Assembly (NCBI GenBank): GCA_028278645.1
Contig: JANQDZ010000017.1
Coordinates: forward strand, 1-47,782
DNA from: Longimicrobiales bacterium
GTDB taxonomy: Bacteria; Gemmatimonadota; Gemmatimonadetes; Longimicrobiales; Gaopeijiaceae
Direction: 5' to 3'
Length of the DNA stretch: 47,782 bases
The translations under genes were made by a program, and so were the position numbers. Numbering within the stretch: the stretch's first letter is position 1; every line of letters begins with the position of its first letter. Under the pieces are notes generated by a model. That model was not told the DNA's origin. It saw only the letters and a list, made by a program, of their open reading frames with translations, and made no database searches. This document shows positions 1,295-46,387 of the stretch, one piece after another.

Positions 1295-1369
1295 GGTGAG
1301 CGACCGGAATCGAACCGGCGACCTCCAGGGCCACAACCTGGCGCTCTAACCGACTGAGCTACGCCCACC
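1295..1369 (-). tRNA. tRNA-His (GTG)
   Basis: It folds as a cloverleaf with acceptor stem GTGGGCG/CGCTCAC, the extra G at position -1 paired to a C discriminator that is typical of tRNA-His, and a seven-base anticodon loop TTGTGGC giving anticodon GTG. The T arm carries GTTCGATTC. The CCA end is not encoded. Confidence 0.96.
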
Positions 1370-1439
1370 AAAAACATCCTGCGAACCTGACAGACCTAAA
1401 TAATATACGGAGTTTCACTGGAGGTAAACCGGCCGCGGA

Positions 1440-1823
1440 TCAAGAAAAAACCTCTCGGTCCGTCATCCAATCCAGCCAAAGGCGAGCCGTGGCGATGTGC
1501 TCCCGGATCCTCGTTCTGATAACGGGATCGAGCTCCTTTCCATTGTCCAGATTCTGGAGTTCACCGAGCCACGCCTTCACGGTGGAGAGTGTCAGGTCGG
1601 GATAGGCGGGTGGCTCGGGAATCTCTGGCCTAGGCCCGATCTCTTCGAACTGGATTCCCCCATCCCCCGGAAAGGGGTCTCGGTGTTTGTGTTCTCCCCG
1701 ACGGATTTCGTCCGGGATCCCATAAGGGAATGCTCGACAGTTCCATTGGGGTTCGTCATAGAATCGGCACCCAACGCAGGGCCGAGGGGGGATCTCAAAT
1801 GGGGGCCTAGTGGGGTCGGGCAT
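1440..1823 (-). CDS. Conserved hypothetical protein with an N-terminal Cys motif
   Basis: About 127 residues, located alone between tRNA-His and tRNA-Arg. Near the N terminus is a C-x2-C-x9-C pattern (CVGCRFYDEPQWNC), followed by AFPYGIPDEIRRGEHKH and PFPGDGGIQFE. I recall similar small proteins of unknown function that share a Cys-x2-Cys-x-Phe-Tyr start, an AFP-GIP-I core and a PGD-GI-FE block. The cysteines could bind a metal, but no function can be given. The C-terminal half looks helical and charged. The start is uncertain: an ATG at 1823 just before the conserved part is preferred, and a GTG at 1877 would add 18 residues. Neither has a clear ribosome binding site. The call as a real gene rests on the motif and on open-frame length. 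Confidence 0.65.
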   Translation of the reverse strand: MPDPTRPPFEIPPRPCVGCRFYDEPQWNCRAFPYGIPDEIRRGEHKHRDPFPGDGGIQFEEIGPRPEIPEPPAYPDLTLSTVKAWLGELQNLDNGKELDPVIRTRIREHIATARLWLDWMTDREVFS

Positions 1824-21826: not shown

Positions 21827-21923
21827 TGGCGGGGGCGTGTGGGAATCGAACCCACCTACCCGGGTTCTAGCCGGGCAAGCTGGTTTTGAAGACCAGTCGA
21901 GACACCAGTCCCGATCCACCCCC
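21827..21923 (-). tRNA. selC: Selenocysteine tRNA (TCA)
   Basis: 97 bases. The anticodon stem CTGGT/ACCAG encloses loop CTTCAAA, so the anticodon is TCA, which reads UGA. The D stem has six pairs (TCGGGA/TCTCGA), the variable arm is long (CCCGG-CTAGAA-CCGGG), and the acceptor GGGGGTG pairs with CGCCCCC. An eighth pair would be G-A, a mismatch. CCA is encoded at 21829-21827, unlike the other tRNAs here. The six-pair D stem and long variable arm separate it from a suppressor tRNA-Trp. It implies a selenocysteine system elsewhere in the genome. Confidence 0.95.
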
Positions 21924-42342: not shown

Positions 42343-43404
42343 TCATTCCCCTGTTTCGACCTGGATGGTTTGGGTCGAGAGGGCGAATTCAATTCCCTCC
42401 TCGGAGAAGATCCTGAAAAGCTCCAGGTTGATGGCCTGCTGCACGTCCATGAACGCCCCATAATCCGGGACGGTCATGTAATACACGGTTTCGATCACCA
42501 GGGCGAAGTCTCCGAAGGTCTTGAAGTGAGACCGATCGAAACGGGTGAGGTCCTGGCCCTCTACCACTTTCCGGATCATTTCCGGAATCGCCTCGAGTTT
42601 CTTACGCGGGGTATCGTAGGTGACTCTTGTGGAAAAGACCGCCCGTCGTTCTTGCATTCTCTTGAAGTTTCGGATTCGGCTGCTCAGCAAATCCGAGTTC
42701 GAGAACACGAGCTGTTCCCCGGAGGATGACCGAATGTGGGTGGACTTCAGGCCCACGTGCTCGACAGTGCCCGAGTATTCGTCGACCACGATGAAATCGC
42801 CGATGACGAAGGGTTTGTCCAAAACGATGGACAGGGAACCGAAGAGGTCGCCTAGGATGTTCTGAACCGCCAAGGCGATGGCGATTCCCCCCACGCTGAC
42901 CCCGGCCAGGATGGCGGTGATCTCAACGCCCAGGTTTTGGAGAATCAGAAGGACAAAGATGGCCCAGACCAAAGCCTTGGTCACGAATCCCAAGGCGCCC
43001 AGGGCCGTAGCCATGGACGGATCCTCCACCGCCTGCTGCCGGCGGTACCGGGCAAGGAAGTAGTTGATGACAGCGGTAGCCCAGAGCCCACCCTGCACCA
43101 GGAGTCCGACCCCCAACGCACGCCGTAGCCAATCATCGTTTGCGGGAGAAAGTGAAAGGAAAAAGCCTCCCACCCATACGCCGAAGATCAGGATGAACAG
43201 ACCTTTCGTTTTCCTGAGAAGCTCCACGAGGAAGTCGTCCAGCTCCGGCCTGGTTCGTCTGGTCAGGTCACCCAACCGCCGAATCACGGCGGTAGCCACG
43301 AGGCGGAGGATGAATACAACTGCCACGCAGACGCCCAAAGCCACCAGCCATTGGCTGATGGTTGTATTCAGGATCACCTGGTCCAAAAAGTTGCTCCCGC
43401 CCAT
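42343..43404 (-). CDS. mscS: Mechanosensitive ion channel, MscS family
   Basis: 353 residues with four to five helices and the MscS core: VSVGGIAIALAVQNILGDLFGSL (pore helix), then IGDFIVVDEYSGTVEHVGLKSTHIRSSSGEQLVFSNSDLLSSRI (beta domain). The Gly/Ala-rich pore pattern is present. The C terminus (VETVYYMTVPDYGAFMDVQQAINLELFRIFSEEGI) matches the alpha/beta domain. It protects against osmotic down-shock. It is divergently oriented from glnA. Confidence 0.92.
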   Translation of the reverse strand: MGGSNFLDQVILNTTISQWLVALGVCVAVVFILRLVATAVIRRLGDLTRRTRPELDDFLVELLRKTKGLFILIFGVWVGGFFLSLSPANDDWLRRALGVGLLVQGGLWATAVINYFLARYRRQQAVEDPSMATALGALGFVTKALVWAIFVLLILQNLGVEITAILAGVSVGGIAIALAVQNILGDLFGSLSIVLDKPFVIGDFIVVDEYSGTVEHVGLKSTHIRSSSGEQLVFSNSDLLSSRIRNFKRMQERRAVFSTRVTYDTPRKKLEAIPEMIRKVVEGQDLTRFDRSHFKTFGDFALVIETVYYMTVPDYGAFMDVQQAINLELFRIFSEEGIEFALSTQTIQVETGE

Positions 43405-43493
43405 GAAGAGGGATCTCCTAGGTTGCTTCGGGGTTTACCCGCCTGAAGTGGGGCTCGCTCAGAAAGTATTGAGACGATGCCAGGAGGCAAACG

Positions 43494-43522
43494 GAGAAAA
43501 AGCAGGCTTGACGCTTTTTCCC
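43494..43522. promoter_or_regulatory. Inverted repeat overlapping the glnA -35 box
   Basis: GAGAAAAAGC (43494-43503) and GCTTTTTCCC (43513-43522) pair over AAAAAGC/GCTTTTT with a nine-base spacer. The -35 hexamer TTGACG (43508-43513) sits in the spacer and the first base of the right arm. A dimeric regulator could bind here. It could also be a weak terminator on either strand. Confidence 0.4.
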
Positions 43523-43536
43523 ATTTCATCTATCAT
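43508..43536 (+). promoter_or_regulatory. Sigma70 promoter of glnA
   Basis: TTGACG (43508-43513), exactly 17 bases, TATCAT (43531-43536). The predicted start near 43543 gives a leader of about 174 bases before the glnA ATG. It has the best box match in the intergenic region. Confidence 0.75.
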
Positions 43537-43576
43537 CGCGCGTGCCACACAAAACCGAAAATACCGGAGGGCCCCC

Positions 43577-43669
43577 ATGAGGGCCCTGTACCGTGCTTGG
43601 ATCCGAAAAGGCCAGGTCGAGGAAGCAGTGTCTCCCGAAGCCTGGCCTCTCTTTTTTGAAGCGGGTTAA
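43577..43669 (+). CDS. Possible 30-residue leader peptide upstream of glnA
   Basis: A short frame of 30 codons (begins MRALYRAWIRKGQ, ends FFEAG) with a good ribosome binding site GGAGG at 43566-43570, seven bases before the ATG. Hairpin AGGGCCC/GGGCCCT (43568-43587) would cover that site and the start. The terminator-like hairpin at 43609-43657 lies inside the frame, as in translation-coupled attenuators. It contains one Gln, two Trp and several Ala/Glu codons, with no obvious run of regulatory codons. It is unrecognised and may not be translated. Confidence 0.35.
   Translation: MRALYRAWIRKGQVEEAVSPEAWPLFFEAG
43609..43657 (+). terminator. Terminator-like hairpin in the glnA leader
   Basis: AGGCCAGG (43609-43616) pairs with CCTGGCCT (43641-43648), 24-base loop, then TCTCTTTTTT. 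A second small hairpin GGGTT (43663-43667)/AACCC (43674-43678) follows, and GGTTAA (43664-43669) could instead pair with TTTAACC (43681-43687). Placed between the promoter and glnA it may attenuate transcription. Confidence 0.5.
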
Positions 43670-43716
43670 CTAGAACCCTCTTTAACCATCATACCGGCTT
43701 GGGAGGTCGTACACTC

Positions 43717-45132
43717 ATGGATCAGGATGGATTCCTGTATTACGTCGAGGGGTTCCGCGAGGACATGGAGGACTACGTGGACGAGATGGATAGCACCCAG
43801 GGTCTATCCCTCTCCACACCGGAAGACGTCCTCAAGTACGTGGAGGAATACGGCATCTCCTCCATCCGGCTGTGGTTCACGGACATGATGGGCTTCCTGA
43901 AATCCTTTTCCATCACACCGAAAGAGCTCCCGGGAGCATTCGAAGAAGGGATGGGTTTCGACGGGTCTTCAATCGAGGGGTATCAGAGGATCCAGGAAAG
44001 CGACATGGTAGCGGTCCCCATCGCTTCTACCGCCCAGGTCCTACCCTTCCGGTCCGGGGGCTCCCGCACACTCAGGATGTTCGCAGAGATCCAGAACCCC
44101 GACGGAACTCCCTATGCGGCCCATCCACGCCTGGTCCTTCAGCGGCAGCTTGCCCGCCTGGAAGACCACGGCTTCACAAACATGTACCTGGGTCCGGAGC
44201 CGGAGTTTTTCTACTTCAAGTCCGAGAGCGAGCCGCAGATTCTGGATCGAGCCGGGTATTTCGACATCAACCCGGTGGACATCGGCGACGACATCCGTGA
44301 GGTGACGGTATTCGCCCTCGAGGCCATGGGGATTCCGGTGGAGTACCACCATGCCGAGGTGGCTCCCTCCCAGCATGAGATCGACATCCGGTACCAGGAT
44401 GCCCTCCGCATGGCCGACTCCCTCCAAACTCATAAGTACCTGGTGAAAGAGATCGCTCGGCGATGCGGTGTATACGCCACCTTCATGCCGAAGCCGTTGG
44501 AGGGGGAGAACGGAAGCGGGATGCACGTTCATCTCTCCCTATTCAAGAATGGTACAAATTCGTTCTACGACGCCGACGATCAACATCACCTGAGCGCCAC
44601 AGCGAAGCAGTTCATTGCCGGGATCTTGGACCATGCTCGGGAACTAGCCTTTGTGACGAATCAGTGGCACAACTCCTACAAACGGTTGGTGCCCGGATAT
44701 GAGGCCCCCGTCTATATCGCGTGGGCGGAGCGAAACCGATCCGCGGCGGTGAGGATTCCTCTCTACAAGCCCGGGAAAGAGGTGGCGACCCGCATGGAGC
44801 TCCGGTTCCCGGACGCTGCCTGCAATCCCTACTTCGCATTTGCTACCATGCTGGCGGCGGGTTTGGACGGGATTGGTCGTGGCCTGAGCGTTCCGGATCC
44901 CATGACGATCGACCTCTACGGTATCACGCCCATCGAGAGGGAGGAGATGGGGATCGGGGCCCTTCCCCACGATCTTTTCGAGGCGGTTCAGGTGGCCGAG
45001 GGGAGCGCCTTCATGAAGGAGGTTCTCGGTAAAGACGTTCACCGGAAATTAGTCGAGACAAAACTCAATGAAGTCGACGAGTTCCGGCTCAACGTGTCGA
45101 CTCTGGACCTGGAGAAACACCTGGTGCTTTAA
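43717..45132 (+). CDS. glnA: Glutamine synthetase, type I
   Basis: 471 residues. The beta-grasp N-terminal domain (LWFTDMMGFLKSFSI, MGFDGSSIEGYQRIQESDM with the Asp-latch region) and the catalytic domain are complete: GPEPEFFYF, EVAPSQHEIDI, GSGMHVHLSLFKNG with the active-site His, NSYKRLVPGYEAPVY, and AVRIP. It forms a dodecamer and makes glutamine from glutamate and ammonia. ATG 43717 has GGGAGG upstream at ten bases; an in-frame TTG at 43699 is unlikely. A strong promoter and structured leader precede it, and a bidirectional terminator follows. Confidence 0.97.
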   Translation: MDQDGFLYYVEGFREDMEDYVDEMDSTQGLSLSTPEDVLKYVEEYGISSIRLWFTDMMGFLKSFSITPKELPGAFEEGMGFDGSSIEGYQRIQESDMVAVPIASTAQVLPFRSGGSRTLRMFAEIQNPDGTPYAAHPRLVLQRQLARLEDHGFTNMYLGPEPEFFYFKSESEPQILDRAGYFDINPVDIGDDIREVTVFALEAMGIPVEYHHAEVAPSQHEIDIRYQDALRMADSLQTHKYLVKEIARRCGVYATFMPKPLEGENGSGMHVHLSLFKNGTNSFYDADDQHHLSATAKQFIAGILDHARELAFVTNQWHNSYKRLVPGYEAPVYIAWAERNRSAAVRIPLYKPGKEVATRMELRFPDAACNPYFAFATMLAAGLDGIGRGLSVPDPMTIDLYGITPIEREEMGIGALPHDLFEAVQVAEGSAFMKEVLGKDVHRKLVETKLNEVDEFRLNVSTLDLEKHLVL

Positions 45133-45172
45133 GCGCTTGGGTCCGACTCAGACGACTCTGACAACAAAGAAA

Positions 45173-45212
45173 GAGGAGGCGGAGCTCTCAGCTCCGCCTC
45201 CTCATCTTTATG
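45173..45212. terminator. Bidirectional terminator between glnA and lspA
   Basis: GAGGAGGCGGAGCT (45173-45186) pairs perfectly with AGCTCCGCCTCCTC (45190-45203), loop CTC, 14 pairs. Plus strand: ATCTTTATG follows. Minus strand: TTTCTTTGTTG follows. Confidence 0.88.
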
Positions 45213-45247
45213 AGCCTATTAACCCTTCTAAATTCCCTGTCGCCGAG

Positions 45248-45778
45248 CTAGCTGGTGGTCTCCCCGCCTGGCTCGGGTTTCACCTCGGGAGATGGTACCG
45301 GTTTCTCGGTTTCCTCCATCCAAAAGGAGATAGCCAAAGCCACGGCTCCGCACGAAATGGCCATGTCAGCGACGTTAAAGATCGGCCAATCCATGAACCC
45401 AAGATTGATGGGGCCGATAAAATCCACCACTCCTTCGTTCCACCGCACCCGATCGATCAGGTTTCCGATGGCTCCCGCCATGACCAACGAAAGAGCGAAT
45501 ATTCTGAAACGGTCCGAGCCCTCGGTCTTTGCCAGGAGGTAGATAAGAAGGGCCAGGGCCACCAAGGTCACCGGTATAAAAAACCAGCGGGGATCGTTCC
45601 CGATGCTTAGCCCGAATGCGGCGCCGCGATTGAAGGCCAAATTCAACGGAATGAGGCCGCCGAAGAGCTCGGAACTTTGATAATTGGCCAGAGCACTCAT
45701 TGCCCAACGTTTGGTAATCACGTCGGCAATGAGCACCACGGGGAGAATCGTACCAAGGAAGTAGGCTTTGGTTCGCAC
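45248..45778 (-). CDS. lspA: Lipoprotein signal peptidase (LspA)
   Basis: 176 residues from a GTG at 45778. Four helices and the two catalytic aspartates: GAIGNLIDRVRWNEGVVDFIG (first Asp block) and IFNVADMAISCG (second Asp). NLAFNRGAAFGLS is the family's first conserved block. It cleaves prolipoproteins at the lipobox Cys and would mature the lipoproteins seen in this window. The open frame continues to 46081 through a repeat-rich tract and the 3' end of ssrA, with no homology, so that extension is rejected. No ATG is near the first helix. A C-terminal Glu/Pro tail is a minor oddity. Confidence 0.9.
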   Translation of the reverse strand: MRTKAYFLGTILPVVLIADVITKRWAMSALANYQSSELFGGLIPLNLAFNRGAAFGLSIGNDPRWFFIPVTLVALALLIYLLAKTEGSDRFRIFALSLVMAGAIGNLIDRVRWNEGVVDFIGPINLGFMDWPIFNVADMAISCGAVALAISFWMEETEKPVPSPEVKPEPGGETTS

Positions 45779-46036
45779 CGGTATCTTTCGTCCCAGGAAA
45801 TGGGGGCCATCTCTGGCCCCCGTCGTTTGCAATGGATCTTCGGCCGCGCCGAATCCCCTCGGTCGTTTCCTCCCGCCGGTTCCGCCGGCAGGCTTTCTTT
45901 CCATGGAGGCGGCGGGGGTGACCTGCGGCGGCCCTCGGCCGTCCTCGGTCGTCTCCTCGGGCCTCCGGCCCTCGTCGGCTCGACCCGCTACGCGGGTTCG
46001 CCTCCCGGCAAGTATCTGCCAGGTATTCTCTTTCCA
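45779..46036 (-). other. Hairpin-dense, high-GC segment between ssrA and lspA
   Basis: No gene is supported here. Perfect hairpins: GGGGGCCA (45802-45809)/TGGCCCCC (45814-45821), GCCGG (45875-45879)/CCGGC (45885-45889), GGGCC (45959-45963)/GGCCC (45967-45971), and ACCCGC (45983-45988)/GCGGGT (45992-45997). Motifs such as CGACCGAGG recur on the minus strand. The distal copy of an ssrA 3'-end repeat (45896-45916) lies inside. It may be a decayed repeat element or a processing/termination region for ssrA. Confidence 0.5.
45896..45916 (-). repeat. Distal copy of ssrA 3'-end repeat
   Basis: 21 bases identical to 46029-46049. Minus strand CCCGCCGCCTCCATGGAAAG plus one base includes the last 13 bases of the tmRNA. 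The offset is 133 bases and the orientation is the same as the ssrA end. Confidence 0.85.
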
Positions 46037-46049
46037 TGGAGGCGGCGGG
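46029..46049 (-). repeat. Proximal copy of ssrA 3'-end repeat
   Basis: It overlaps the last 13 bases of ssrA (46037-46049) and eight bases downstream. It is identical to 45896-45916. Such an arrangement matches attachment-site pairs at ssrA, but no integrase is nearby. Confidence 0.85.
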
Positions 46050-46387
46050 AGTCGAACCCGCGTCCACGAAAGGTTCACCAAGAGCCTCTACGTGCGTAGA
46101 TCACTGTGAGGTTTCGCCCCTGGTGGCCAGTAATCAACCGGTCCTGAGGCTAGCTGCCGAATAGTCTCGATCAGCTCACGGCAACGAGGAGACTGATCCA
46201 GCCCGACTTATCGTCGCCTCAAGTCACGCCTCGGGCGGGCGAGTCAGGAGGCGGGCATGCGTTTAGTTACGCAGCCAGTGCCATTTGGTTGTTGGCAATT
46301 GTGTGTTCCCGGACTTTTTTCGAGGATCCCGGGGTCCTCGGCACGCTACTCCAGATTTGCCAGACGTGTCGAAGCCGTTTCGCCCCC
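46037..46387 (-). ncRNA. ssrA: Transfer-messenger RNA (tmRNA)
   Basis: 351 bases. The 5' end GGGGGCGAAACGGCTTCGACA and the 3' end (GCGGG-TTCGACT-CCCGC T arm, then CGCCTCC-A) form the tRNA-like domain with seven acceptor pairs. Pseudoknot 1 is visible: CGAGGA/TCCTCG, with loop CCCGG pairing CCGGG after an A run. Eleven bases later the tag frame starts at GCC (46296) and ends in TAA (46267), encoding ANNQMALAA. CCA is not encoded. It rescues stalled ribosomes with SmpB. A possible minus-strand promoter is TTGAAC ... GATCAT just upstream. Confidence 0.96.

Follow-up and report, generated by a model that had tools for sequence, protein, structure and literature searches.

The glnA locus and its leader

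The window analysed here is contig C43 of the Gemmatimonadota genome G000, a stretch of 47,782 nucleotides that carries glnA and its leader near the 3′ end. The gene located 5′ of glnA lies on the − strand with its start at 43404 and is transcribed away from glnA, and the interval 43405–43716 is a divergent promoter and leader region. Since the upstream gene diverges on the − strand, the hairpin P2 of this leader cannot terminate an upstream + strand gene. The features of the region are as follows.

43508–43536, + strand: sigma-70-type promoter, TTGACG (43508–43513), 17 nt, TATCAT (43531–43536), with 10 of 12 consensus matches
43531–43545, + strand: conserved TATCATCGCGCGTGC block over the −10 box and the probable transcript start
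43566–43570, + strand: ribosome site GGAGG, 5′ of the ATG at 43577
43568–43587, + strand: hairpin H1, AGGGCCC-CCATGA-GGGCCCT, with the ATG of the upstream frame in the loop and part of the ribosome site in the stem
43577–43669, + strand: upstream open reading frame (uORF) of 30 codons (MRALYRAWIRKGQVEEAVSPEAWPLFFEAG), passing through the terminator hairpin P2
43595–43617, + strand: candidate antiterminator GCUUGG-AU-CC-GAAAA-GG-CCAGGU, mutually exclusive with P2
43610–43647, + strand: hairpin P2, lower stem GGCCAGG/CCUGGCC, an upper stem and a loop containing AGUGUC, −19.5 kcal/mol
43648–43657, + strand: U-rich tail of P2, TCTCTTTTTT, which makes P2 intrinsic-terminator-like
43663–43678, + strand: third hairpin GGGTT-AACTAG-AACCC, followed by TCTTT
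43717–45132, + strand: glnA, glutamine synthetase of 471 amino acids, with its ATG at 43717

A sequence-only reading of this DNA had described a promoter upstream of the leader, a ribosome site with an ATG and a 30-codon frame whose stop ends at 43669, a hairpin over the start region, a terminator-like stem with a T run inside the frame, and a further hairpin with an alternative pairing. Each of these was located at the positions listed. Its count of eight pairs for the P2 stem holds for the lower stem; P2 has further pairs in an upper stem, and its loop is conserved in part.

The promoter is the sole promoter-like site within 42500–46000. A TTGAC(A/G) with a −10-like hexamer 15–18 nt further on was found in all nine genera that keep the leader and also in the leader-poor L006; most genera with the leader have a 17-nt spacer and a TAT(C/G)AT −10 box, mostly TATCAT. 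The transcript probably starts at about 43540–43544, within the conserved 5′ block. An exact match to TATCATCGCGCGTGC occurs once in the entire window genome, and GCGCGTGC or GCACGTGC is found at the equivalent place in genera g1, g7, g15, g31 and g54. This block may be an operator or a 5′-end RNA motif. In the form TATCATCGC(G/A)CGTGC (window 43531–43545; L012, L016, L024, L031) it is common to five genera, and in some genera the palindrome GCACGTGC lies within it.

P2 has the make-up of an intrinsic terminator, a stable G+C-rich hairpin followed by a U run. The third hairpin is possibly a second, weak terminator or a spacer. Folded as a single sequence, the whole leader gave a minimum free energy z score of −1.27, and 24 of 200 shuffled sequences folded equally well. 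The leader is thus not unusual by its own fold, and support beyond chance has to be comparative. A search of the window leader against the Rfam families gave no match up to E = 10, in agreement with the sequence-only reading, which had seen no resemblance to the glnA or Downstream-peptide riboswitches. With the comparisons given below, we conclude that a real and conserved regulatory leader, not in Rfam, precedes glnA.

Two other RNA genes were observed in the window. A tmRNA gene (46034–46387, − strand) lies shortly 3′ of glnA, and tmRNA is near glnA also in L014. A selenocysteine tRNA gene (21831–21923, − strand; RF01852, 75 bits) suggests that the genome may use selenocysteine.

Conservation of the hairpins and the open frame

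Among 154 genomes sampled from the order, 25 carry this GlnA, all of them in the family of the window, and a scan of the phylum revealed it in five more genomes of another family (f9). Upstream DNA was compared for all carriers except those cut by contig ends or gaps. Eight genera have, between the promoter and glnA, a hairpin with the P2 consensus GRCCRGG...CCYGGYY that continues into an upper stem and is followed by a U-rich tail. U occupies eight of the best ten tail positions, and the run is weaker in g7, g2 and g17. The lower stem is near-invariant, with one A-U/G-C double change and three of eight pairs that never vary, while the upper stem differs between genera in sequence and register with its pairing kept. 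No significant covariation was found in the columns of the MAFFT alignment, as there is little variation in the lower stem and the register of the upper stem is not the same from genus to genus. Column covariation being uninformative, we swapped the 3′ arms of P2 between genera. Native pairs had a mean of −24.9 kcal/mol versus −21.3 kcal/mol for swapped ones, and a fraction of 2.5e-5 of the 40,320 permutations was as good, a value that flatters P2 since the arms were picked after folding. The z scores of the P2 segment are free of that flaw; the window gave −2.3, and the remaining leaders with P2 ranged from −1.7 to −4.5. RNAalifold, applied to the alignment of whole leaders, recovered P2 alone; H1 is entirely different from one genus to the next and was missed for that reason.

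A covariance model of P2 (R1) matched 18 genomes with E < 1e-9, each time directly upstream of glnA; the L012 and L039 leaders scored 47 and 63 bits. Training sequences match by construction, and the search is informative on the lack of other confident copies: none was found outside glnA leaders in 150 genomes. The weaker matches that were inspected (E about 1e-4 to 1e-3) lay in open, coding-like sequence. A second match in the genome of the window itself, on contig C50 (L078), scored 26 bits.

Additional hairpins were observed in two genera. In g12 (L014–L022, L037–L039), P2 is immediately preceded by a hairpin that overlaps its 5′ arm and carries a GUGUCUCC motif resembling that of the P2 loop, which gives the appearance of a duplication. 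In g7 (L031, L032), a strong second terminator-like hairpin (GGCGCCGG...CCGGYGCC and a U run) stands between P2 and glnA.

We then compared the start region of the uORF. An NUG-A is located 36–39 nt from the conserved 5′ motif in six genera (g1, g7, g12, g15, g31 and g54). Its first letter is A, U or G and never C, varying between A and U within g1 and between A and G within g12, where L039 starts with GTG. AGG precedes the start in five of the six genera, the exception being g15, and the start codon lies inside a hairpin loop in five of the six. The stem of H1 has a different sequence in each genus yet is still paired (combined p = 3e-4 over six genera, from an arm-swap test that is flattering here too, as the arms were chosen after folding).

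In the window the uORF spans P2 and its U run, and in all six NUG-A genera the frame is open past the position of P2 (joint chance about 0.012); in g15 it is open past the site where P2 would be. Among the eleven species of g12, insertions and deletions between the start and glnA are of 45, 6 and 3 nt, and the phase is always kept. Ten of these eleven species have the uORF stop 2 nt 5′ of the glnA ATG; in L038 a stop lies 17 nt before glnA. The frame reaches or enters the glnA start in five genera; those of g7, g15 (L023) and g17 end overlapping it (TCATGA, CAATGA), and that of g54 continues in frame into glnA. In the window and in g31, about 50 nt separate the end of the uORF from glnA. The U run of L028 has lost one base, which puts the frame out of phase 3′ of P2.

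The peptide itself is not conserved. Its amino-acid sequence differs across the genera compared, with mostly nonsynonymous changes, and no codon-level selection was detected on the uORF, synonymous versus other changes being 2 versus 11 in the g7 pair and 2 versus 9 in the g1 pair. The phase of P2 relative to the uORF start is 0, 1 or 2 depending on the genus. Judged from these alignments, the genera share a start site and a frame that stays open across P2 but no common peptide. The expectation that relatives would show compensatory changes and a conserved frame was therefore borne out for paired changes, the start codon and the open frame, and failed for the peptide.

The leader element is common in the lineage. 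It is not obligatory, because exceptions exist. P2 is present in g16 (L011), where no frame from the first 62 nt passes it. In g2 (L013) a frame runs past P2 from a UUG just 10 nt into the leader, and g15 keeps the start and the frame with no clear P2. G002 (L006), of the same genus as the window, has the promoter and a short leader without P2, and G060 (L007) has neither P2 nor a recognisable leader.

A possible translation-coupled attenuator and its alternatives

These features are best read as those of a translation-coupled transcription attenuator of glnA, laid out like that of E. coli pyrBI, an explanation to which we give close to an even chance of being correct. An intrinsic terminator can be repressed by a ribosome stopping nearby (PMC4824070), and the pyrBI terminator lies inside a 135-bp leader gene, where a closely following ribosome prevents it from folding (PMC4824070, PMC5021804). 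In the glnA leader, RNA polymerase would start near 43540 and the uORF start would be presented in the loop of H1, which would gate initiation. A ribosome on the uORF close behind the polymerase would cover the 5′ arm of P2, so that no terminator forms and glnA is transcribed. If initiation fails or lags, with the start held in H1 or the polymerase not pausing, P2 would form and transcription would stop near 43657. Translation through P2 would matter and the peptide would not, and the mostly nonsynonymous changes in an unconserved peptide are what a pyrBI-type leader predicts. Nucleotide supply, initiation at H1, or a protein at the 5′ motif are candidate signals. We infer from this layout that P2 terminates transcription in vivo, that the uORF is translated, and in which direction the effect goes. 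For E. coli, repression is described as far less frequent where a terminator lies in the first 100 bp of a frame, since it escapes the ribosome there unless the polymerase pauses (PMC4824070); the window leader would therefore need a pause or fast initiation. The main counter-evidence to the translation-coupled reading is g16, with its P2 and no uORF.

The same g16 leader fits an explanation by protein-mediated antitermination or termination, in which the uORF is incidental and a regulator recognises either the near-invariant CCAGG/CCUGG stem of P2 with its loop or the candidate antiterminator. Conservation of the lower stem of P2 letter for letter also points this way, as a plain terminator needs pairing only. 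In the window, GCUUGG (43595–43600) can pair with CCAGGU (43612–43617), part of the 5′ arm of P2, and overlapping alternative pairings, which would place mutually exclusive hairpins upstream, can be drawn in several other genera. The arm-swap test of this pairing gave 0.003 with g15 and 0.02 without it, a weak result that counts against such a regulator. The best known nitrogen-linked class of such proteins, ANTAR, is absent from the window genome and from all leader-bearing genomes except G061, and binding at P2 leaves the kept start codon in the H1 loop unexplained. We regard a protein regulator as unlikely, though the most credible of the alternatives.

Somewhat less probable still is a plain intrinsic terminator with constant read-through, which would yield an RNA of about 115 nt, perhaps a small RNA, and let a fixed low share of transcription reach glnA. 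The arrangement of a strong promoter and a strong terminator with a U-rich tail in series would suit it, as would the second terminator-like hairpin that stands before glnA in some relatives (g7, g12). The near-invariant stem of P2 and the fixed start codon, however, exceed what a plain terminator needs, and the window has no second promoter-like site between P2 and glnA. Furthermore, glnA is normally a regulated gene.

The sequence-only reading had proposed translation-coupled or ligand-responsive control. The former part is the best-supported layout: the terminator lies inside the frame, a hairpin loop presents the start codon, and relatives retain both, with stems that differ yet remain paired. 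The latter part found no support. A metabolite riboswitch controlling P2, for glutamine as an example, would agree with a conserved leader preceding a nitrogen gene, and glnA-motif RNAs precede nitrogen genes in cyanobacteria (PMC2864571). Besides the lack of an Rfam match up to E = 10, the region 5′ of P2 lacks a conserved core resembling an aptamer, its folding does not exceed that of shuffled sequences (mean z −0.5), and the kept parts are the 5′ motif, the NUGA and P2 only. We consider a riboswitch very improbable. Attenuation of the trp type, with ribosomes stalling at Gln or Glu codons of a leader peptide, can be practically dismissed: a leader peptide is encoded, and a CAG codon lies in the 5′ arm of P2 in g1, g17 and g31, but it is not kept in g7, g12 and g54, because P2 stands in phase 0, 1 or 2 to the start in different genera; Gln or Glu codons do not occur in a run, the peptide lacks conservation, and the one Gln codon of the window is not kept across genera.

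If the translation-coupled reading is true, glnA of this lineage is controlled by coupling of translation and transcription in its leader, a logic best known from the pyrimidine genes of enteric bacteria, and a mode of glnA control is added that is independent of both glutamine riboswitches and ANTAR antiterminators. We found no description of glutamine synthetase control in Gemmatimonadota in the literature. A bolder extension, which we put forward as speculation with a low chance of proving right, is a lineage-wide attenuator based on ribosome–polymerase coupling, with the start codon in a hairpin loop, that might sense CTP, GTP or translation capacity instead of glutamine or PII/NtrC. Both of these nucleotides are made from glutamine. 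The leader is small and lends itself to reporter assays.

Comparison with known systems

Like the glnA RNA (RF01739) and the Downstream-peptide RNA (RF01704), the element is a leader upstream of glnA. It differs from both in giving no match at E up to 10, in lacking an aptamer core, and in that P2 is a long terminator-like hairpin. The Guanidine-I/ykkC RNA (RF00442) offers another parallel, as a ykkC-like RNA and a terminator precede a different glnA in another Gemmatimonadota family; the window leader has no ykkC core, as seen from the lack of an Rfam match. In that family (f8), a ykkC/Guanidine-I-like RNA followed by a terminator was observed 5′ of the different glnA in three species, at 1285–1440 in L047, 1270–1440 in L088, and about 1295–1450 (reverse strand) in L046. 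A scan of 298 genomes with RF00442 at E 1e-3 under strict filters gave no match, and these leaders were therefore located by pattern. L047 scored 38.7 bits against RF00442 (E 1.2e-5), below the gathering score of 63. The f8 RNA may represent a variant of ykkC that binds a different ligand and regulates glutamine synthetase.

The two-hairpin antiterminators recognised by ANTAR proteins (nas, eut and other nitrogen genes related to them) share with the leader a nitrogen gene and hairpins before a terminator. In such RNAs both hairpins carry a hexaloop with A1 and G4. The A..G pattern is seen in a few P2 loops (for instance AGUGUC and AGCGUA), whereas the window has no pair of hexaloop hairpins, and neither its H1 loop CCAUGA nor its P2 loop AGCAGUGUC fits the A1/G4 rule. 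Control by an ANTAR protein was considered and rejected, since the domain (PF03861) is absent in G000 and was found in one leader-bearing genome of the scan (G061). The trp-type attenuators resemble the leader in having a promoter, a leader frame, a terminator and a candidate antiterminator. The window, in contrast, has no control codons or conserved peptide, and its terminator lies inside the frame, not after it.

The closest likeness is to pyrBI (pyrL), whose promoter and structural gene are separated by a short leader frame with an intrinsic terminator in it, much as the terminator-like P2 lies within the uORF of the window. The pyrBI attenuator does not depend on which peptide is made, and its leader frame stops beside the structural gene. 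Further traits of that attenuator are a nucleotide-sensitive pause of RNA polymerase ahead of the terminator, a U-rich pause cluster and the sensing of UTP. The two systems concern different genes in different phyla and have no sequence relation, and the glnA uORF is distinguished by a start codon in a conserved hairpin loop.
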